52,511 bases of DNA from positions 1-52,511 of the forward strand of contig JAFRXI010000035.1 of assembly GCA_017437755.1 (NCBI GenBank), given 5' to 3'. A model generated the notes under the pieces. It was not told the DNA's origin. It ran no database searches and saw nothing but the letters and a program-made list of their open reading frames with translations. The position numbers were made by a program, and so were the translations under genes. Source of the DNA: Bacteroidales bacterium. GTDB taxonomy: Bacteria; Bacteroidota; Bacteroidia; Bacteroidales; UBA932. The first letter of the stretch is position 1. Each line of letters starts with the position of its first letter. This document shows positions 40,328 to 49,480 of this stretch, in pieces.

Positions 40328-40666
40328 CTATTTGAGAAGTTCGGAGGGCGAAAGACCCAGAAGTTCCATCCGGCGCCTGATCTGGGGCAGTTCCACCTCG
40401 ATGAATTCCTTCCGTTGGGCCTGGAGCACCTTTTCCCGGGCATCCGGACTCACGAAATAGCCTATTCCCCTCTTGTTGAAGATGATGCCGTCAGCCGTGA
40501 GCTTTTCGTAGGTCCGCATCATCGTGTTGGGGTTCACTCCCAGCGACGCCCCGTACTCCCTGACCGAGGGTATCCGGTCATCTCCGCCAAGCTCCCCCGA
40601 GAGGATCCTCTCTGAGATTGCATCGGCAATCTGGAGATAAATGGGTCTGTTGTTGTCGAAGTTCAT
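40328..40666 (-). CDS. GntR-family (YtrA-type) transcriptional regulator
   Basis: This 112-residue repressor-like protein is almost only a winged helix-turn-helix. Motifs are PIYLQIADAISERILSGEL, RIPSVREYGASLGVNPNTMMRTYEKL and RGIGYFV, followed by a short helical tail (about 75-112) and no ligand domain, as in the YtrA subfamily. Such regulators usually control the ABC transporter gene next to them. Here it is the last gene after an ABC ATPase and a permease. A palindrome near the operon's start site (42372-42393) is a good autoregulatory operator, and a near-identical site precedes the MacAB-TolC operon. Confidence 0.92.
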   Translation of the reverse strand: MNFDNNRPIYLQIADAISERILSGELGGDDRIPSVREYGASLGVNPNTMMRTYEKLTADGIIFNKRGIGYFVSPDAREKVLQAQRKEFIEVELPQIRRRMELLGLSPSELLK

Positions 40667-40678
40667 AGCATAAGTTGC

Positions 40679-41497
40679 TTAATGTTTCAAAGTCTTGACC
40701 CTGAAATAGATAGCTATCAACAGGGCGATTATCACCACACCGTTTACGACTGAAGCCCAAACCATGGATCCGTCCACGACTGCCTGGGGACCGAGATTCT
40801 GCACCCATCCGGCAAATCTCTCGGCATTGTCGCCGGTCTTGAACACAAGGCCCACCACGTTGGTGACCAGAAGGTCAAGAGCAAGTATGATTCCGAATCC
40901 GCCCAGGATCTTCCACTTCTTGAAAATAAGTCCGCACAGGAGGAAGAAAAGCAGGTTGAGGATCATCTGCAGTACCAGCGGGAACCATATCTTTCCGAGC
41001 GACACGTTCATCTCTTCGCCTGTGGAGGCTATGAGTTCATTGAACTTGGCGAGTACGGTGCCGATTCCGGTTGCCAGGGGATCACCCACCGAGGGGTCCA
41101 CAAGGGCGAGTATCGCATCGGTTGAAAGGTACACCGCAGCAAAGGCGAGGGGAAGAACGAAAACCCCGATAATCACCATCGACACAGTCTTTTCCAGGGC
41201 GGAGGCAGGTATCATAAGGTATGCCGAACCATCGTCCTTGGCGGTCAGATGGCCGTATGCCCTTGTCTCATAGAGTACCAGCACTAAATAGGCCAGGAAG
41301 AAGGTTATGGCCCTGGGAACGATACCCGGCCCCTGCCAGTGGAAGGAGAACACCAGGCTGATGGTGACAACAGCCAGGTAGAGTATAAGTCCGCAGAGTC
41401 CCAGCATGAGGGAGGTCTTGCCGTTGCGGTGCCACATCTGCTTGAGGTCGAAGGCAAAATACTTTCCGAACCTCGATATGTTGAATGTCTCGTTCAT
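40679..41497 (-). CDS. ABC transporter membrane subunit
   Basis: This 272-residue inner-membrane protein has about six hydrophobic segments (starting near 30, 60, 105, 170, 200 and 245). A short cytoplasmic N-terminus precedes them (FGKYFAFDLKQMWHRNGKTS). It lies 19 bases downstream of an ABC ATPase and 12 bases before a YtrA-type regulator, so it is very likely the permease of that ABC system. The transported substrate is unknown; YtrA-linked systems in Firmicutes respond to cell-envelope antibiotics. No closer family is recognised. Confidence 0.75.
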   Translation of the reverse strand: MNETFNISRFGKYFAFDLKQMWHRNGKTSLMLGLCGLILYLAVVTISLVFSFHWQGPGIVPRAITFFLAYLVLVLYETRAYGHLTAKDDGSAYLMIPASALEKTVSMVIIGVFVLPLAFAAVYLSTDAILALVDPSVGDPLATGIGTVLAKFNELIASTGEEMNVSLGKIWFPLVLQMILNLLFFLLCGLIFKKWKILGGFGIILALDLLVTNVVGLVFKTGDNAERFAGWVQNLGPQAVVDGSMVWASVVNGVVIIALLIAIYFRVKTLKH

Positions 41498-41516: not shown

Positions 41517-42350
41517 TTAAGCATTCTGGGAAAGCATTGATTTCACAAGGTCCCTGTGAGCATGCACGGTGTTGAAGAAGGCCTCCAGATTCACCTTGCT
41601 TTCCGCACCTGTGGTGTTTGGATAGACCTGGATAGTGCCGCCGGGAGTCTGCTCCATGTACAGTGCGCCCGGGTGAAGTTCGTTGCCGTAATCGAAGAAC
41701 AGCCTTGAGGAAATGTCCTGCAATGAGGCATTTACCAGCACGTCCCTGTGGTCCAGGATGATTATCGGGTCGATGATGTTCTCCAGGTCCCTAACCTGAT
41801 GGGTTGAGATCACTATGGAGGAATCCTCCCTGGTGTAGCGGGTGATGGCGCTGCGGAACTGCGATTTTGACGGGATGTCCAGACCGTTGGTGGGCTCGTC
41901 GAGGTAGTAATTCCGGGCCTGGCAGGCAAGGGCGAAGGCGATATAGGTCTTCTTGAGCATACCGGCCGACATGGAGTTCATCTTCAGCGAAGGATCCACC
42001 TCGAACTCCGCCATGAGCTTTTTGAACATGTCCATTGAGAAACGGGGCCAGAACACTCCCCTCTCGGCGGCGAATACCGAAGCCTTCAAGGCTACGGGAG
42101 CCACCTCGTCGGGCAGATAGAACTGTTCGCACAGGAGGGAAGGCTGACGGCGGTAAGGATTGCGCCCGTCCACAGTTATGGAACCGCTGTCCGGAGCCTT
42201 GAGCCCGCATAGAAGCGTAAGCAGCGTGGTCTTTCCAACGCCGTTCTCGCCAAGAAGGCCGTAGATATTGCCTTCCGCTATTGTCATTGTAATGTTCTTC
42301 AGGACGGGAGTCTTGCCGTAACTGAAGCAGAGGTCATTTACTTGGATCAT
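41517..42350 (-). CDS. ABC transporter ATP-binding protein
   Basis: This 277-residue nucleotide-binding subunit has Walker A GENGVGKTT and Walker B YYLDEPTNGLD, with a His in the switch region (VISTHQV). The signature motif is degenerate (MSAGMLKK instead of LSGGQ), a variation seen in YtrB-like ATPases. It would energise the adjacent permease. It is the first gene of the operon with the permease and GntR regulator. The promoter and overlapping palindromic operator lie 22-76 bases upstream. Confidence 0.93.
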   Translation of the reverse strand: MIQVNDLCFSYGKTPVLKNITMTIAEGNIYGLLGENGVGKTTLLTLLCGLKAPDSGSITVDGRNPYRRQPSLLCEQFYLPDEVAPVALKASVFAAERGVFWPRFSMDMFKKLMAEFEVDPSLKMNSMSAGMLKKTYIAFALACQARNYYLDEPTNGLDIPSKSQFRSAITRYTREDSSIVISTHQVRDLENIIDPIIILDHRDVLVNASLQDISSRLFFDYGNELHPGALYMEQTPGGTIQVYPNTTGAESKVNLEAFFNTVHAHRDLVKSMLSQNA

Positions 42351-42371: not shown

Positions 42372-42393
42372 GTGTATTAGTTTAATAGTACAC
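42372..42393 (-). promoter_or_regulatory. Candidate GntR/YtrA operator, site 1
   Basis: GTGTATTAGTTTAATAGTACAC is an imperfect palindrome with GTGTA...TACAC ends (first 20 bases: GTGTATTAGTTTAATAGTAC). It lies two bases downstream of the -7 box, over the expected transcription start. Eighteen of 21 bases match site 2 at 49357-49377. Confidence 0.75.
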
Positions 42394-42395
42394 TG

Positions 42396-42426
42396 CAAAT
42401 GTAGTAACAATTTTCATATCTGCAAA
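42396..42426 (-). promoter_or_regulatory. Promoter (-33/-7) of the ABC-GntR operon
   Basis: On the minus strand TTTG (42423-42426) is followed after 19 bases by TACATTTG (42396-42403). The operator begins two bases downstream. Confidence 0.75.
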
Positions 42427-42445
42427 TTATTTTTCGATTTTTTTG

Positions 42446-42479
42446 TACTTTTATAGCAAGAAAATCGACAGGTCGATTT
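42446..42479 (+). promoter_or_regulatory. Weak -7 box and palindrome upstream of the epimerase gene
   Basis: TACTTTTA (42446-42453) is one base off TAnnTTTG. Nine bases later comes a perfect inverted repeat AAATCGAC-AG-GTCGATTT (42462-42479), which ends 16 bases before the preferred ATG. The palindrome covers the presumed start of the transcript. It could be an operator for an unknown regulator. Confidence 0.5.
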
Positions 42480-42495
42480 CTAAACTGATATGTAT

Positions 42496-43644
42496 ATGAG
42501 ACGAAGAGAATTCCTAAGGGATGCGGCGGTGGGTGCCGCAGCCATGGCACTGGCAGGATGCGGGCAAGGGATTGCAGGCAGGGCCGGCAAGGGGCCCAAG
42601 GCCTACAAGGTGGGCGGGAAAGAGCGGATGAAACTGTCGTTCTATCCGTATGAGCTGGAACTGCGCCATGTTTTCACGGTTGCCTCCTACTCCAGGAAAA
42701 CCACTCCCGGAGTCCAGGTAACAATTGACTATGACGGGTTTACGGGATACGGAGAGGCCTCCATGCCGCCCTACCTCGGGCAGACGGTGGAAAGCGTCAC
42801 CTCCTTTCTGGCAAAGGTGGACCTGGGCCAGTTCCCAGACCCCTTCATGATGGAAGACATCCTCGCCTACGTAGACAGCCTCTCCCCCGGCGACTCGGCC
42901 GCGAAGGCCGCAGTGGACATAGCCCTTCACGACCTGGTGGGGAAACTCCTCGGCCAGCCGTGGTACCGGATCTGGGGGCTGGACCCCTCCAAGGCGCCGT
43001 CCACCACCTTCACCATAGGAATCGACACCCCGGAGGTGGTAAGGGAGAAAACCCTTGAATGTGCCGGCCGGTTCAACATATTAAAGGTAAAGGTTGGCCT
43101 GGACACCGATGAGGAGATGATCCGGACCATCCGGTCGGTCACCGGCCTGCCCCTTGCCGTAGATGCCAACCAGGGTTGGAAAGACCGCGAAAAAGCCCTT
43201 GACGAGATATTCTGGCTGAAGGAACAGGGCGTGGTTATGGTGGAGCAGCCGATGGCCAGGGAAAGACTCGACGACAACGCCTGGCTGACCGAGCATTCCC
43301 CCCTACCGGTCTATGCCGATGAGGCCATACAGCGTCTGGCCGACCTTCCGTCGATCAAGGGAGCATACTCCGGCATAAACATCAAACTGATGAAGTGCAC
43401 CGGCATGCGGGAAGCCTGGAAAATGGCCGCGTACGCCCGTGCCGAGGGCATGAAGGTAATGCTAGGCTGCATGACGGAGACCTCCTGCGCCGTGAGCGCC
43501 GCCGCCCAGCTATCGCCCATCGCCGACTTTGCCGACCTGGACGGTAACCTGTTGATTTCCAACGACCTGTTCACAGGGATGACGGTCAAGAAGGGCCTCA
43601 TCACCCTCCCCGACCGTCCCGGTATAGGTATAATCAAAAAATAA
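42496..43644 (+). CDS. Dipeptide epimerase (enolase superfamily) with Tat lipoprotein signal
   Basis: This roughly 382-residue enolase-superfamily member is like L-Ala-D/L-Glu epimerases, which recycle or modify peptidoglycan-derived dipeptides. Catalytic features are the KxK lysine (KVKVGLD), metal ligands Asp (VDANQGW), Glu (MVEQP) and Asp (YADEA), and the second lysine in INIKLMKC. The N-terminus has a twin-arginine motif RRREFLR, a hydrophobic stretch and a lipobox (MALAGC), so it is predicted to be exported folded and lipid-anchored. The ATG at 42496 is preferred over 42490 because it places the basic signal directly at the start. It converges with the TolC gene 12 bases on. Confidence 0.86.
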   Translation: MRRREFLRDAAVGAAAMALAGCGQGIAGRAGKGPKAYKVGGKERMKLSFYPYELELRHVFTVASYSRKTTPGVQVTIDYDGFTGYGEASMPPYLGQTVESVTSFLAKVDLGQFPDPFMMEDILAYVDSLSPGDSAAKAAVDIALHDLVGKLLGQPWYRIWGLDPSKAPSTTFTIGIDTPEVVREKTLECAGRFNILKVKVGLDTDEEMIRTIRSVTGLPLAVDANQGWKDREKALDEIFWLKEQGVVMVEQPMARERLDDNAWLTEHSPLPVYADEAIQRLADLPSIKGAYSGINIKLMKCTGMREAWKMAAYARAEGMKVMLGCMTETSCAVSAAAQLSPIADFADLDGNLLISNDLFTGMTVKKGLITLPDRPGIGIIKK

Positions 43645-43656
43645 CCTGCCCGGTTT

Positions 43657-44991
43657 TCAGAGTGCGCCGCCGCGGTAGAAGTCCAGCAGGCGGGTCTGGA
43701 AAAGGTATTCATAGGAGGCCTGGACCAGGTCGGAAGCAGCCTTCAGGTACTGGTTCTTGGACTCGTTGAACTCGGTGATGGTGGCCTTGCCGTTCTCATA
43801 GCGGGCGGTCACCAGGTTGAAGGCCTCCTCATAACTTGCCGACGCCGTGAGCGAAGACGTATACTTCTCCCTTGCGGCCAGCGCATTGTAATAGGCCTGC
43901 TGTATTTCCTTGTAGAGAGACTTCTTCACGCTTTCCAGCCGGAGTGCCTGGCTCTCCTTCCCGAGTTTGGCGCTCCGGATTCCGTTTCTGGTTGCGAACT
44001 TATTGAAAATGGGAATGTTAAGGCTGATTCCAACGTATTGGCTGAAGTTGTTGGACAACTGGTCCCAGAAGCCCGACTGGGGGATATTCTGCGAGGTTGT
44101 ATAGTAGTTTGAGCCGATTCCGCCGCTCAGCGAAAGCGAAGGATACAGGCTGCTCTTTGCAAGGGCGATGGTGGCGTCGGAACTCTGCAGGCGAAGCTGC
44201 TCGGCCCGGACGGACGACTTGTTCTCCACCGCCGAGGCGAAAATGCTCTCGGGGCTGGGAAGAAGCCTTTCCTCCAGGGATCCCGCTCCTTCGGGCGAAG
44301 CGATCGTGAACCCCTCGGGCGAAGGCAGTTCCAGCAACTGCGCCAGTTCCAGGAGCGAGAGCGAGAGCTCGTTCCCGGCCTGCACGAGGGTAACCCGGCT
44401 CTGGGTCAGGGAGGCCTTCTGCTGGGCGACCTCGGCCTGGGTGGCCTTGCCGGCGAGGAGCATCTCCGCAAGACGGTTCACCTGGGCCGAATCAATCTGG
44501 ATCTGCCTCTCTGCAACGCCCAGGATCTCCTGGTTATAAAGTATTTGGAAGAACGACCTTGCCACTGCGACCCGGATGTCGTCGCGGGCTTTCTCAAGGT
44601 CCTGCACCGCCGCTTCCAGGTTCAGGCTGCCGATCTTGATATTGTTCCTGGCCCTGAAACCGTTGAAAAGACTTACCCCCGAACCGATTGAGAAACTGGT
44701 CGAAGTGGTATTGGTATTGGCATAGGTGTTGTCGGCGGTAAGCCCGCGCCCGAACGACAGGTTCTCCGATGCCGAAGCTGAAAGCGACGGCAGCCTGTCC
44801 AGCTTGGTGGTACTGAGTTCGATGGAATCGCGGTCGATCGTATTCTGCCGGGAAAGGAGGTCGATATTGTGTTCCAGGGCCCAGTCGATGCACTCGGACA
44901 GAGTCCAGGCGTGCGAGAGGTCCTGTGAGTTCGCCTCCACTCCCCACATCAACGCAACAGCCACGGCTGCAAGCAAATGACACTTTTTCAT
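43657..44991 (-). CDS. TolC-family outer-membrane efflux protein
   Basis: This 444-residue protein has a signal peptide (MKKCHLLAAVAVALMWG). Two OEP repeats follow, with long helical hairpins (about 45-240 and 255-440). Examples are SLSASASENLSFGRGL, ARSFFQILYNQEILGVAERQI, LSLSGGIGSNYYTTS and VGISLNIPIFNKFATRNGIRSAK. It forms the outer-membrane exit duct of a tripartite exporter. It is the last gene of the five-gene efflux operon starting at 49336, six bases after the adaptor stop. Confidence 0.92.
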   Translation of the reverse strand: MKKCHLLAAVAVALMWGVEANSQDLSHAWTLSECIDWALEHNIDLLSRQNTIDRDSIELSTTKLDRLPSLSASASENLSFGRGLTADNTYANTNTTSTSFSIGSGVSLFNGFRARNNIKIGSLNLEAAVQDLEKARDDIRVAVARSFFQILYNQEILGVAERQIQIDSAQVNRLAEMLLAGKATQAEVAQQKASLTQSRVTLVQAGNELSLSLLELAQLLELPSPEGFTIASPEGAGSLEERLLPSPESIFASAVENKSSVRAEQLRLQSSDATIALAKSSLYPSLSLSGGIGSNYYTTSQNIPQSGFWDQLSNNFSQYVGISLNIPIFNKFATRNGIRSAKLGKESQALRLESVKKSLYKEIQQAYYNALAAREKYTSSLTASASYEEAFNLVTARYENGKATITEFNESKNQYLKAASDLVQASYEYLFQTRLLDFYRGGAL

Positions 44992-44997
44992 GGCAGG

Positions 44998-46089
44998 TTA
45001 CTTAACGTTGATTATCTTGTTTCCCCTGAGGGTCTCCCCTCCTTCCAGGCCTCCGGTTATCTGGATATTGATTCCGTCACTCACACCGGTGGTGACGCTG
45101 CGCTTGACGTAGGAACCAGCCTCGGAGATGTATACGAAGGTGCTGTCGCCCTCGAACGAAAGGGTGCTTTCCGGGATTGAAAGAACCTGCAGGGCCTGCT
45201 GGAGCACTATCTGTGCGTTGGCGCTGTATCCGGAACGGATGGTAACCCCTTCCGGCACCTTGACTGAAGCCTTGATCTCGAACTGGTTGGTTCCGTTGTT
45301 CTCGGTTGCCTTGGGCGAAATATACTCGAGCACCGCATCCAGTGAGACATCGGGAAGGGCACCCACGGTAATCTTCACCGGCATCCCCACTGAAAGGCGC
45401 CCCACCTCGGTCTCGTCGATATTGCCGTCGAAGATGAGGTCGTCCATGTCGGCCACCGTGGCGATGGTGGTACCGTCGTTGAAGGTATTGGAGTTGATGA
45501 CCGAGTTCCCCACCTTCACCGGGATGTCCAGGATAAGGCCGGAAATGGTGGACCTTACCAGGGTGGAACTACCTGATTTATTGGAAGATGACACTCCGTC
45601 GCGGATAATCTCCAGGGATTCCTTGGCCGAGGCAAGTTCCTCCTTCGCCTGGTTGTAGGCCTGCAGCACCCTGTCGTATTCCTCGGCCGAGACCAGGCCC
45701 TTCTCATGGAGGGGCTTCTCGCGGTCGTAGTCGGTCTTGGCCTGCTTCAGGTTCAGTTCCGCAAGGCGGACCCGGCTCTGAGCCGAGCTGAGCGACGACA
45801 TGTCGGGAATCACCTTCACCTTGGCGATGATCTCATTCTGCTTGACTGTCTGGCCGGCCTCCTTGTACAGTTCGGCTATGATGCCGCTTATCTGGGGCTT
45901 GATGTTGACCTCGTCCCGGGGCTGGATCTTGCCGGTCACTATGGTGGACTTCACGATGTCAGTAACCGCGGGAGTTATTTCCTGATACAGCTCCGGCTTG
46001 GGACGGGACCTCTTGAAAAGATAGTAGAAGGTCCCCAGGAACAGAAGGCTTACCAAAATGATAATCAGGTACTTGAAAAACTTTTTCAT
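44998..46089 (-). CDS. MacA/HlyD-type periplasmic adaptor
   Basis: This 363-residue membrane-fusion protein has one N-terminal membrane anchor (about 7-25). A biotinyl-lipoyl-like half (GKIQPRDEVNIKPQISGIIAEL) is followed by a helical hairpin (about 95-150) and a second lipoyl half (STISGLILDIPVKVGNSV). A beta-barrel with GMPVKITVGALPD comes next. It connects the inner-membrane permease to TolC. Order and spacing place it in the MacAB-like operon with two permeases upstream and tolC downstream. Confidence 0.92.
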   Translation of the reverse strand: MKKFFKYLIIILVSLLFLGTFYYLFKRSRPKPELYQEITPAVTDIVKSTIVTGKIQPRDEVNIKPQISGIIAELYKEAGQTVKQNEIIAKVKVIPDMSSLSSAQSRVRLAELNLKQAKTDYDREKPLHEKGLVSAEEYDRVLQAYNQAKEELASAKESLEIIRDGVSSSNKSGSSTLVRSTISGLILDIPVKVGNSVINSNTFNDGTTIATVADMDDLIFDGNIDETEVGRLSVGMPVKITVGALPDVSLDAVLEYISPKATENNGTNQFEIKASVKVPEGVTIRSGYSANAQIVLQQALQVLSIPESTLSFEGDSTFVYISEAGSYVKRSVTTGVSDGINIQITGGLEGGETLRGNKIINVK

Positions 46090-46104
46090 ATAGCGTTACG
46101 TTTT

Positions 46105-47349
46105 TTATTCATCTCTCATTGCATCAACCGGCTTTATTTCCATGGCGCGGAGCGAGGGGGCCAGCCCGGCCAGTACGCCCAGGACCGTCAGCAGCATGGC
46201 CGACAGCAGCGCCATGGAGAACCCCACCTGGAATTCGGCCTTCAGGATTCCGTCGGTGGTCATGGCCAGTTCCACCACCGACAGCACTCCCACCCCGAAC
46301 ACGATTCCGGCCAGACCGGATGCCAGGGTAAGGATGATGCTCTCCGATATGATTTGGGAAAGGATCATCCCGGGAGTGGCCCCGATGGCCCGGCGGATTC
46401 CTATTTCAACCGTCCTCTCCCGCACCGACACCATCATGATGTTGGAAACCCCTATCGCCCCGGCCAGTATGGTTCCAAGGCCGATCAGCCATATAAGGAA
46501 GTTGATACCCTTGAAAAGGCTGTCCACGATTCCGAAAATGAGCTGGGTGTTCATCATCTCGATGGCCCTTTCGTCGGAAGGGTCGATGAAGTGCTGCCGG
46601 GCGATGATTTCCCTCACACGCGGGACGATATCGCTTACGGTCACCCCTTCTTGAGCCGTGAAACACAGAAGATCGATAACTTCACCGGTATTATAAGCCC
46701 TTCTGACAAGGGATATAGGCATTGTCACTGTCTCGTCGGCACTGCCGTTGATGCTTATGTTGCCGTTGTTGAAATCTACGCCCACCACCGTGTAGTACAT
46801 ACCGTCCACCCGGATGGTCTCGCCGCAGGGGTCGCCCCCCTGCGGGAAAAGGTTGTTGTATATCTTCTTCCCTATCACGCAGACTTTCCGCTCGGCGGAT
46901 ACGTCCATGTCGTTGATATAGCGTCCGTAAGCCAGCTGGGGCGACTCTATGGAGGAATAATTGGAATACACACCCTTGATGGAACAGCTGGCGGTAAACT
47001 CTCCCAGCTCGGCAGTCTTGCCCCAGAACGATACTATGGGGCTCACCACGTCCACCTCCGGGACAAGGGCCTTGACGCGGGAAGCGTCGGTGTAGGTCAT
47101 ATCCCAGGAACGGCCTTTCTTGAACCCCTTGTACGGCTTGGTGGTATTCTCCGCGAAGGCCAGGCACGTATTGGTTGCAAAGCCCTCGAAGTTCTTCTCC
47201 ATCAGTTGCTTAAGGCCCTTTCCGCCGCCCGCCAGGAGAATGAGCATGAACACGCCCCAGAACACCCCGAAGCCCGTAAGCAGGCTCCGGCTCCGGTTCC
47301 TGGTGATGGAGTCCATCACTTCCGCAAAACTGTCACGATCGAATCTCAT
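46105..47349 (-). CDS. MacB-type ABC permease, second subunit
   Basis: This 414-residue FtsX/MacB-like permease has an N-terminal membrane helix (about 20-42), a large periplasmic MacB_PCD domain (about 45-265), and three C-terminal helices. The conserved cytoplasmic loop is VRERTVEIGIRRAIGATPGMIL, and the terminal AMEIKPVDAMRDE is typical. It shares four bases with the upstream permease gene. The two paralogues probably form a heterodimer driven by the ATPase at 48614. Confidence 0.92.
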   Translation of the reverse strand: MRFDRDSFAEVMDSITRNRSRSLLTGFGVFWGVFMLILLAGGGKGLKQLMEKNFEGFATNTCLAFAENTTKPYKGFKKGRSWDMTYTDASRVKALVPEVDVVSPIVSFWGKTAELGEFTASCSIKGVYSNYSSIESPQLAYGRYINDMDVSAERKVCVIGKKIYNNLFPQGGDPCGETIRVDGMYYTVVGVDFNNGNISINGSADETVTMPISLVRRAYNTGEVIDLLCFTAQEGVTVSDIVPRVREIIARQHFIDPSDERAIEMMNTQLIFGIVDSLFKGINFLIWLIGLGTILAGAIGVSNIMMVSVRERTVEIGIRRAIGATPGMILSQIISESIILTLASGLAGIVFGVGVLSVVELAMTTDGILKAEFQVGFSMALLSAMLLTVLGVLAGLAPSLRAMEIKPVDAMRDE

Positions 47350-48617
47350 TCCGCCCTCAACGCTTCAATAGGTTTGACCCGTGAGGCCTTCCGCGCCGGA
47401 GCAAGACCGGCGATGGTCCCCGCAACTATCAGCAGCAGAGTAGCTTCCAGCGCCACGGAAAGTCCCACGGTGGGATTCTCCAGTATATGGATCTCCGTAA
47501 AGCCGACGTTCACGGAATTCTGCCCGATGGTCCTGTCCATCACCTCGCATGCCAACATTCCCAGCAGCATGCCTATATATCCGAACACGGCCGTAATGGT
47601 AACACTCTCAGCCACAATGAGTTTAAGGATTGCTCCGGGCTTTGCCCCGATAGCCTTCCGGATTCCGAACTCGTGGGTCCGTTCCTTCACCGAGATGAGC
47701 ATGATGTTGGACACGCCCACGATTCCGCTTACCAGCGTCAGCACGCCCAGGATCCAAAGGAAGGTGGCAAGGATGTTCTGGGCCTTGGTCATCCTAAGGT
47801 TCCCCAGTTTCCGGTTCCAAATCCAGAGAGCCCGTTCGTCGGTGGGGTCGGCGTCGTGCCGGGACTTGATCCGGGAGCCGAAGGCCTGATTGAAGTCTTC
47901 GTTTTCCTTTTCGGTTTCGAGCCCCCTGGTGGTGAACACGATGGTTCCCAGGTTGTCGCCGTTTCCCTCGATCACCTGCATGGTGCTGAACGGGGCAAAC
48001 GCCTCGCCGCCCATGCGGCTCTCGTCGGTATGGAAGAGCCCCGTCACGACAAACGCCTGGTCACCGGCCTTCAACCACTTCCCTATCAGGTCCTTAGGCT
48101 GCATCCTGGTGCCCTCCAGAAGAGCTTTGGCCGTATTTGTACCAATCACTATCCCTTTCCTCCTCTCGGATATGTCAATGGGGTTGATGAAACGGCCCTC
48201 GCTCATGTTCACCTTATTTATATTGCTGAATCCGGGATTGACCCCGACGAGGGAAACACGTACCGAATTGGTCCCGTAAACGAGGTTCACGTTTCGGCCC
48301 GAGGTCGTGGGAGACACATCCACTATGTTCTCGCTGAACTCAGCGCCGGAAAGGAGAGAGGCGTCTCCCTTGTCAAGCCGGATCCAGCGGCCCTGCTTGT
48401 ATCCGGCATAGGGCTTTGAAGTGAATCCGCCCCAAACCTGGACCGAGTTCTTCACAAAGTCGTCGCTGTTGCCCATGAAGGCGTTCATGAGGCCGTTTCC
48501 GGCCCCAAGGAGGCAGATGAGAAGGAATATCCCCCAGCTTACCGCAAAACCCGTGAGGGCCGTGCGGAGCTTGTTGCCAGAGACGGTACTCCATATTTCA
48601 TTAATAAGGTCTCTCAT
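47346..48617 (-). CDS. MacB-type ABC permease, first subunit
   Basis: This 423-residue paralogue of the next gene has the same layout: N-terminal helix, periplasmic domain (about 45-290), three C-terminal helices, the coupling loop VKERTHEFGIRKAIGAKPGAIL, and the ending ASRVKPIEALRAE. It overlaps the ATPase stop and the next permease start by four bases each. Unlike MacB of E. coli, the ATPase is a separate polypeptide. Confidence 0.92.
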   Translation of the reverse strand: MRDLINEIWSTVSGNKLRTALTGFAVSWGIFLLICLLGAGNGLMNAFMGNSDDFVKNSVQVWGGFTSKPYAGYKQGRWIRLDKGDASLLSGAEFSENIVDVSPTTSGRNVNLVYGTNSVRVSLVGVNPGFSNINKVNMSEGRFINPIDISERRKGIVIGTNTAKALLEGTRMQPKDLIGKWLKAGDQAFVVTGLFHTDESRMGGEAFAPFSTMQVIEGNGDNLGTIVFTTRGLETEKENEDFNQAFGSRIKSRHDADPTDERALWIWNRKLGNLRMTKAQNILATFLWILGVLTLVSGIVGVSNIMLISVKERTHEFGIRKAIGAKPGAILKLIVAESVTITAVFGYIGMLLGMLACEVMDRTIGQNSVNVGFTEIHILENPTVGLSVALEATLLLIVAGTIAGLAPARKASRVKPIEALRAE

Positions 48618-49336
48618 TTCATTATGCCGCCAGCGCCGAAAGGAGAGGCATCATGCCTTGCATTGGCCTCGATCTCCCCTATCATGCCATCCTTTATATG
48701 GACTATCTTGTTTGTGAAATTTGCCACGCCGCTCTCGTGGGTAACCACTATCACCGTCATGTTTTCGGTGCGGTTGAGTTCGGACAGAAGCTCCATTATC
48801 TCAACCGAGGTCCTGGAGTCAAGGGCACCGGTAGGCTCGTCTGCCAGGATAATGCTGGGCTTTGTGATAAGGGCCCGGGCTATGGCGACCCTCTGCTTCT
48901 GGCCGCCAGACATCTCGGAAGGGTAATGCCCGGCCCATTCTTTCAGTCCAAGCCTTTCCAGATAATCCATGGCCATCTGGCGGCGCTTCTTCCGTGGCAC
49001 GCCCTGGTACAGAAGGGGCAGTTCAACGTTCTCCACCGCGGTCTTGAACCCAATCAGGTTGTAGGACTGGAAAATAAAGCCTATCAATCGGTTACGATAA
49101 TTGGCAGCCTCTTTCTCAGAGAGGTTCCAGATGAGTTTCCCGTCAATCCGGTACTCCCCGGAATCGTAATTGTCAAGTATGCCGAGTATGTTGAGAAGGG
49201 TTGATTTTCCCGATCCTGACGCCCCCATTATGGATACGAATTCCCCCCTTTCGATCCCGAGGGTCACTCCCTTGAGTACATGCAGGGGCTGGGCTCCGTA
49301 GTAAGTCTTGTTTATATCCTTCAGCTCGATAAGCAT
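48614..49336 (-). CDS. ABC ATPase of the MacAB/LolD type
   Basis: This 240-residue ATPase has Walker A GASGSGKSTLLN, the Q-loop region LIGFIFQSYNLIG, a full signature MSGGQKQRVAIARAL, Walker B IILADEPTGALD and the switch His (VVTHE). It belongs to the group that drives MacB/LolCE-type mechanotransmission permeases. It is the first gene of the five-gene operon. The promoter and GntR-like operator lie 21-75 bases upstream. Confidence 0.94.
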   Translation of the reverse strand: MLIELKDINKTYYGAQPLHVLKGVTLGIERGEFVSIMGASGSGKSTLLNILGILDNYDSGEYRIDGKLIWNLSEKEAANYRNRLIGFIFQSYNLIGFKTAVENVELPLLYQGVPRKKRRQMAMDYLERLGLKEWAGHYPSEMSGGQKQRVAIARALITKPSIILADEPTGALDSRTSVEIMELLSELNRTENMTVIVVTHESGVANFTNKIVHIKDGMIGEIEANARHDASPFGAGGIMK

Positions 49337-49356
49337 AAGGCCAGGTTCTTTGATAC

Positions 49357-49377
49357 TGTATTAGTCTACTATTACAC
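49357..49377 (-). promoter_or_regulatory. Candidate GntR/YtrA operator, site 2
   Basis: TGTATTAGTCTACTATTACAC matches site 1 (42373-42393) at 18 of 21 positions (core TGTATTAGT...TACAC). It lies two bases downstream of the -7 box, exactly as at site 1, and 20 bases before the ATPase ATG at 49336. Confidence 0.72.
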
Positions 49378-49379
49378 TG

Positions 49380-49411
49380 CAAAGATATATGCAATTTTTT
49401 TATTATGCAAA
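49380..49411 (-). promoter_or_regulatory. Promoter (-33/-7) of the MacAB-TolC operon
   Basis: On the minus strand TTTG (49408-49411) is followed after 20 bases by TATCTTTG (49380-49387). The TGCAAA next to the operator is also shared with the ABC-GntR promoter. Confidence 0.72.
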
Positions 49412-49444: not shown

Positions 49445-49480
49445 AAAAAAGACAGCCCCCCGGGCGCACCGGGAGGCTGT
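49445..49480 (-). terminator. Intrinsic terminator of the small protein-phosphatase operon
   Basis: ACAGCCCCCCGG (49452-49463) pairs with CCGGGAGGCTGT (49469-49480), with one mismatch. On the minus strand it is followed by six T (49445-49450). It is 24 bases after the lipoprotein stop. Confidence 0.78.

Follow-up and report, generated by a model that had tools for sequence, protein, structure and literature searches.

The locus described here raises the question of whether a single small regulator governs two separate transport operons. It lies in a 52,511-nucleotide stretch of Bacteroidales DNA (GTDB lineage UBA932; GenBank assembly GCA_017437755.1, contig JAFRXI010000035.1), the whole of which is called the window below. 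The minus strand holds an ATPase-permease-gntR operon (42350-40328, recognised as an operon by same-strand order) of ATP-binding cassette (ABC) transporter genes and a GntR-family regulator, and an exporter operon with the order ATPase-MacB-MacB-MacA-TolC (49336-43657). An earlier note on this DNA had proposed that both operons share one promoter and operator design and are repressed by the 112-residue GntR protein. Judging from sequence comparison, this protein is very probably a YtrA-type autorepressor that controls its own ABC operon and the MacAB-like exporter through palindromes at the transcription start sites.

We re-derived the coordinates of the shared elements and confirmed that they occur in the same order, on the minus strand, at both promoters. 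At promoter A, upstream of the ATPase-permease-gntR operon, a TTTG box near -33 (42423..42426) is followed after 19 nt by the -7 box TACATTTG (42396..42403) and, after the dinucleotide CA, by operator A, the 22-base partial palindrome GTGTACTATTAAACTAATACAC (42372..42393), which is kept upstream of orthologous operons. Promoter B, upstream of the exporter operon, carries TTTG (49408..49411), a spacing of 20 nt, the -7 box TATCTTTG (49380..49387), again CA, and operator B, GTGTAATAGTAGACTAATACAG (49356..49377), which is recognised by a matrix trained on copies of operator A and retained in relatives. The palindromes end 21 (A) and 19 (B) bases before the start codon. Both -7 boxes fit the consensus TAnnTTTG and, together with the TTTG near -33, match the Bacteroides main-sigma promoter as described in PMC7366714; on this basis, the palindrome should cover the transcription start. 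The earlier note had counted two 21-base palindromes agreeing at 18 positions. That count holds for the first 21 positions, while the best frame is 22 bases, with 18 identical positions between A and B and 8 of 11 pairs matched within each.

This agreement exceeds chance expectation. The composition-based probability of 18 of 22 identities at a box-anchored position is 5e-7. A window scan with the common pattern (≤3 mismatches) returned only two places (4 strand matches) against 0.01 expected from 100 shuffles, a comparison flattered by the derivation of the pattern from the two sites themselves. A position-specific matrix was built from 47 distinct copies upstream of orthologues of the gntR-operon ATPase, with site B excluded. 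It scored site A, a member of the training set, at 35.7 bits, site B at 24.3 bits and unrelated places in the window at no more than 3.4 bits. The 22-mer pattern gave 5 strand matches in the own genome against 0 for the control and, across 36 same-genus relatives at ≤3 mismatches, 131 against 22 for a backward-read control. One further place in the own assembly matched at ≤2 mismatches (C37:86849); we rejected it as a third operator, as no TAnnTTTG box occurs in the 60 bases before it, and no third promoter-linked copy was found in this 85% complete assembly.

The candidate regulator (40328..40666, minus strand) showed every sequence-level YtrA feature that we tested, using the criteria given in PMC4494728. 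Its N-terminal GntR winged helix matches PF00392 over residues 10-72 (45.8 bits; cut-off 27). The AlphaFold2 (AF2) monomer model (mean predicted local distance difference test score, pLDDT, 93.8) combines a winged helix-turn-helix with a reduced C-terminal part of about 50 residues, modelled as two helices (76-103 and 107-110). Its gene shares an operon, by same-strand order, with ABC transporter genes, and the long palindrome places GT and AC far from its centre (GTGTA and TACAC ends of the 22-mer). The top match by E-value was 3ic7, a GntR-family protein of Bacteroides thetaiotaomicron, and profile and fold also match 2du9/2ek5 of Corynebacterium glutamicum and YtrASa (6sbs). A regulon confined to a single ABC operon is not seen here, with two operons in the window and further kinds of target in relatives; the same source treats that trait as a habit of most known YtrA cases and not as defining. 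The earlier note had called the protein the only regulator nearby, and indeed, among twenty window proteins scanned (26.7-52.3 kb), no other has a recognised domain of a DNA-binding regulator; five of the ten in the second batch gave no family or none over cut-off.

Conservation in front of the regulator's own operon was extensive. A GntR match at E ≤ 1e-20 was present in 234 of 300 same-genus genomes. Eighty named loci, mostly from rumen and gut Bacteroidales bins and including one Candidatus Cryptobacteroides, were inspected; among the 75 with visible upstream DNA, 72 carried the site no more than 350 bases ahead of the ATPase-permease-GntR operon, and two of the remaining three had it about 3 kb upstream. 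Genome-wide searches of the 36 same-genus relatives, allowing ≤3 mismatches, gave a match in all 29 genomes that have the GntR protein and none in five of the seven that lack it. An order-wide search with a stricter box-plus-palindrome pattern (≤2 mismatches) found 80 of 393 genomes, with one control match seen in the table, and the palindrome precedes the regulator's own operon in many families. We read 50 order-wide loci, 30 supplied by the search and 20 chosen with second sites first. A homologue of the operon's ATPase lay downstream of the site in 41 of them, and in 20 longer stretches a GntR homologue was found in 14 of the 15 loci having that ATPase.

These associations bear on the possibility that another regulator uses the palindrome as its operator and that the co-located GntR protein is a bystander. 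Five GntR-domain matches in the own assembly, from a genome-wide survey of this domain only, would provide other candidates, but the other four lie in open frames of 251-403 codons and the 112-residue protein is the only short one. The recurrence of the ATPase and GntR genes behind the site, and the absence of the site from most GntR-lacking relatives, also speak against a bystander. So does a GntR paralogue in genome G029 (locus L053, contig C48; 48% identity), which has its own ABC ATPase and, in the corresponding position of its promoter, a palindrome of another sequence, TGTACCACCGTAGTGGTACA. We therefore regard a different regulator as unlikely. The paralogue and its palindrome also offer a natural case for the study of specificity residues.

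Alternatively, the palindrome could act in the mRNA as a 5' hairpin affecting stability or attenuation, since both transcripts presumably carry it in their 5' leader and leader A folds somewhat better than shuffled sequences (z = -1.9). The predicted hairpins are weak, however (A, -3.8 kcal/mol; B, -2.9 kcal/mol), and that of B is no better than shuffles (z = +0.9). Of the 47 distinct A sites, 29 have C at position 6 and 41 have A at position 17, its partner in the hairpin, so that at least 23 sites place C opposite A, which does not pair. An RNA element is thus very unlikely, and we return to the DNA operator and its second occurrence.

Site B could be followed in 104 same-genus genomes with a visible MacAB-type ATPase start. 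Besides the window's own genome, the ATPase was matched in 157 genomes of the genus, 103 of which entered the count, together with G003 via another contig; G003 and G002 were counted from separately read loci (L196 and L197), and G025, whose site lies 724 bases upstream and outside the 400-base scan, from a scan of up to 1000 bases. The site, directly behind TAnnTTTGCA or a similar sequence, preceded the ATPase in 78 of the 88 genomes that have the GntR protein and in 2 of the 16 without it, where absence means not being among the matches at E ≤ 1e-20 in incomplete assemblies. One of the genomes scored as lacking the regulator, G001, yet shows the site followed by an ATPase-like start at a contig end, and its gntR gene may only be unassembled. 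Scores were cleanly separated: in the scan of up to 1000 bases the best scores were ≥17.6 or ≤-2.6 with none between, and for shuffled 400-base sequences the 99th percentile was 3.8 and a score of 17.5 came up once at most. In all 68 rows of the longer scan that bear the site, TTTG precedes it by exactly 2 bases, and in 67 the box is the full TAnnTTTG.

Across 67 distinct sequences, these promoters left a footprint in which the -7 box reaches 1.60 bits per column and the palindrome 1.38, compared with 0.56-0.86 between -50 and -10 and 0.11 from -100 to -50. Although both operons share the same core promoter boxes, a duplicated promoter region or a shared core-promoter constraint without shared regulation is scarcely credible, because the palindrome lies outside the known boxes and is still far more conserved than DNA further upstream, and because exporter operons across the genus, and one in another family (G039), have kept it. 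G039 was one of five outside-genus exporters with visible starts and carries a close GntR match (E = 7.5e-35); the other four (G041, G050, G054 and G055) showed no site and no GntR match better than 1.8e-6. The earlier note had looked to relatives for the palindrome before MacAB-type operons that co-occur with this regulator and had taken its absence upstream of both operons as evidence against the idea. Relatives keep it in front of both.

The note had further placed the exporter 7 kb from the regulator. This proximity is real in the window but unusual elsewhere: in none of the genus relatives examined did we see the exporter beside gntR, the GntR flanks of the 80 named loci (up to 10 kb, several limited by contig ends) contained no MacAB-type permease or adaptor genes, and such genes lay near GntR in 1 of 39 relatives' loci (L052, G060). 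Closeness as such was therefore discarded as evidence. Two genomes of other families are more informative. In G613, a single instance, one site heads a same-strand series of genes for an ATPase, a permease, GntR, a MacAB-type ATPase and MacB, with which the stretch stops. In G060, gntR lies about 1 kb upstream of an ATPase-MacB-MacB-MacA-TolC run on the same strand, with an intervening open frame that we read by eye (L203, contig C56); this run and the ATPase-permease pair, which has a perfect site, are located at two different contig ends. After gntR we also saw a plug-domain outer-membrane protein (G638) and, at L073, a protein that we take to be DUF2807-like. The same-strand runs in the families of G613 and G060 back the putative link of the palindrome to the GntR protein. 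Matched sites, their conservation at separate operons and this gene-order linkage together support the shared regulon that the earlier note had suggested.

Several observations weigh against this regulon. In the own assembly, the 21-letter pattern at ≤3 mismatches gave 5 strand matches, as did its backward-read control; such counts do not discriminate when the control matches equally often, and we therefore placed weight on the matrix and on relatives. Outside the genus (24 genomes, ≤3 mismatches) the control even exceeded the pattern (115 against 65 strand matches), for which reason the stricter box-plus-palindrome pattern was used there. In ten of the 88 GntR-bearing genomes the inspected upstream DNA, 1 kb at most, did not contain the site, and the two GntR-lacking genomes that keep it are G104 and G248 (78% and 76% complete). 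The association of site and GntR presence (Fisher p = 2e-9) overstates co-loss because the genomes are kin: a 45-row tree holds three independent GntR losses, two with site loss and one without difference. Three losses cannot reach significance, and the kinship-corrected contrast is weak; the footprint is the stronger argument. The exporter run of G060 shows no palindrome in the DNA seen. Finally, of 300 genomes of the genus only 158 gave a match to the MacAB-type ATPase at E ≤ 1e-90, and the exporter is therefore best described as an accessory target.

A regulon of just two operons, as the earlier note had it, fits the own assembly, in which these were the only targets seen; in relatives the site also precedes genes for an outer-membrane barrel and for peptidases. 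Surveying the genus (G000-G036), we read 17 further palindrome places, leaving out nine with 3 mismatches. At nine of the 17, in nine genomes, the palindrome was followed by a gene for a PF14905 outer-membrane beta-barrel; Pfam identified eight of these proteins and BLAST similarity the ninth, a fragment. Three more places, in three genomes, headed genes for S41 peptidases, of which Pfam recognised two and BLAST the third. Single places preceded an M16 peptidase and a CarboxypepD-domain protein, and the last three preceded proteins that have no family assignment. At four barrel loci (L180, L183, L193 and L194) the longest called frame begins before the site, and the first ATG after the site was taken as the start. 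In G025 the site heads a DUF975 gene followed by the exporter operon. Outside the genus, it precedes an M13 peptidase (G418), outer-membrane barrel or plug-domain proteins (G362, G499 and G647) and an unrelated ABC ATPase (G595 and G659). Not every barrel gene has the site: none was seen by eye in about 260 bases before close homologues in G011 and G019 or the distant homologues L214-L218, and the homologues in G005 and G027 start outside the DNA covered. The single-query PF14905 search scored up to 16 candidates per genome, and three of its misses (G012, G022 and G031) do have the barrel. The homologues in G011 and G019 (L205 and L206) instead show, by eye, GTCCA-type repeats before a TTTGCAG box, and another regulator may have taken over there. 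A separate arrangement was noted in G017 (L181, 4300-4321), where a palindrome upstream of an S41 peptidase gene is flanked on both sides by inward TTTGCG-type boxes and looks like facing promoters over one site.

In the mechanism that we propose, a GntR dimer would sit on the 22-base palindrome, two bases downstream of the -7 box and over the transcription start, and would block the main promoter of both operons. It would be released by a signal from the envelope, for which a peptide or antibiotic acting on membranes or the cell wall is the likeliest candidate, and the inner-membrane ABC transporter and the tripartite trans-envelope exporter would then be expressed in concert; in relatives, this control would extend to the PF14905 barrel and some peptidases. 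We infer a start-site-blocking autorepressor from the two-helix C-terminal part, in which little space is left for a ligand pocket, and from known relatives, which repress from start-site operators and respond to cell-wall stress or amphipathic peptides, while dimeric binding, repression and the kind of inducer are suggested by analogy with those relatives. As the targets comprise exporters, an outer-membrane barrel and peptidases, peptide or envelope stress is our best guess for the signal, and the inducers are probably membrane-active or cell-wall-targeting compounds. A Bacteroidales-wide YtrA envelope-defence regulon, which would co-induce the ABC transporter, the MacAB-like exporter, the PF14905 barrel and S41, M16 and M13 peptidases on sensing membrane or lipid II damage and handle antimicrobial or self-made peptides, is a tentative extension that we rate as possible. 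To our knowledge, few envelope-stress regulators are known in gut and rumen Bacteroidales. The operator of this YtrA-type factor is sharply defined, its placement relative to the promoter is fixed, and the additional targets, which are conserved, span the envelope; this gives a searchable motif and a testable hypothesis for how these bacteria couple envelope damage to efflux.

A Pfam scan bore out the earlier gene calls (GntR, ABC ATPases, MacB_PCD/FtsX permeases, adaptor and OEP/TolC). All genes of the two operons are on the minus strand. Upstream of gntR lie a 272-residue permease-like membrane protein (40679..41497), which has no Pfam family, is taken as an ABC permease by position and keeps its surrounding gene order in relatives, and the first gene of the operon, a 277-residue ABC ATPase (41517..42350; PF00005) matched in 37 of 61 genomes at E ≤ 1e-40, its own included. 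The exporter operon encodes a MacB/LolD-type ABC ATPase (48614..49336; PF00005; NCBIfam MacB model 244 bits, below the cut-off of 966), two MacB_PCD/FtsX permeases (47346..48617 and 46105..47349; each PF12704 and PF02687), a MacA-like periplasmic adaptor (44998..46089; TIGR01730 over cut-off, PF16576 and PF13437) and a TolC-family outer-membrane channel (43657..44991; PF02321). Its proteins did not reach the MacB and MacA equivalog cut-offs. Between the operons, an L-Ala-D/L-Glu epimerase-like gene on the plus strand (42490-43644; PF13378 and PF02746) runs divergently from the ATPase-permease-gntR operon, from which it is separated by a common intergenic region. Downstream of a tyrosine-phosphatase-like gene, an inverted repeat (ACAGCCCCCCGG/CCGGGAGGCTGT, 49452-49480) followed by T-rich DNA is a probable terminator that insulates promoter B.

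The exporter resembles MacAB-TolC in having genes for an adaptor and an outer-membrane channel beside a MacB_PCD/FtsX permease. It differs in that MacB is not one ATPase-permease polypeptide: the ATPase is encoded separately and there are two permease genes, and because of this split we call the system MacAB-like and not MacAB. Its proposed regulation can be set beside three YtrA-type systems. In Bacillus subtilis, YtrA is likewise a GntR repressor encoded with ABC genes (ytrGABCDEF) that has a second target operon, ywoBCD, and the ytr operon is induced by lipid II-cycle inhibitors (PMC12772383); there the host is Gram-positive and the second target encodes a membrane protein, a hydrolase and a major facilitator superfamily transporter, with no tripartite exporter. 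YtrASa of Sulfolobus acidocaldarius represses two membrane-protein loci through an operator over the start site (PMC6746942), but is archaeal and uses a 14-bp motif, and the abstract of that paper names no ABC exporter. Staphylococcus aureus PmtR is a YtrA-type repressor of the ABC operon pmtABCD whose footprint overlaps the start site and which is released by phenol-soluble modulin (PSM) peptides (PMC5080381); in that organism, which has no outer membrane, a microarray found only the pmt genes and one downstream gene affected. The GntR-motif survey of PMC4494728, which leaves the YtrA subfamily little room for a ligand pocket, covers 229 YtrA-type factors, none from Bacteroidetes, and describes most YtrA regulons as single operons. 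Our literature searches, covering open-licence papers, found no paper on a link between YtrA and MacAB in Bacteroidota. A two-operon YtrA regulon is already known from YtrASa and B. subtilis YtrA; what appears to be new is its occurrence in Bacteroidales, with a MacAB-like exporter, outer-membrane proteins and peptidases among the targets.

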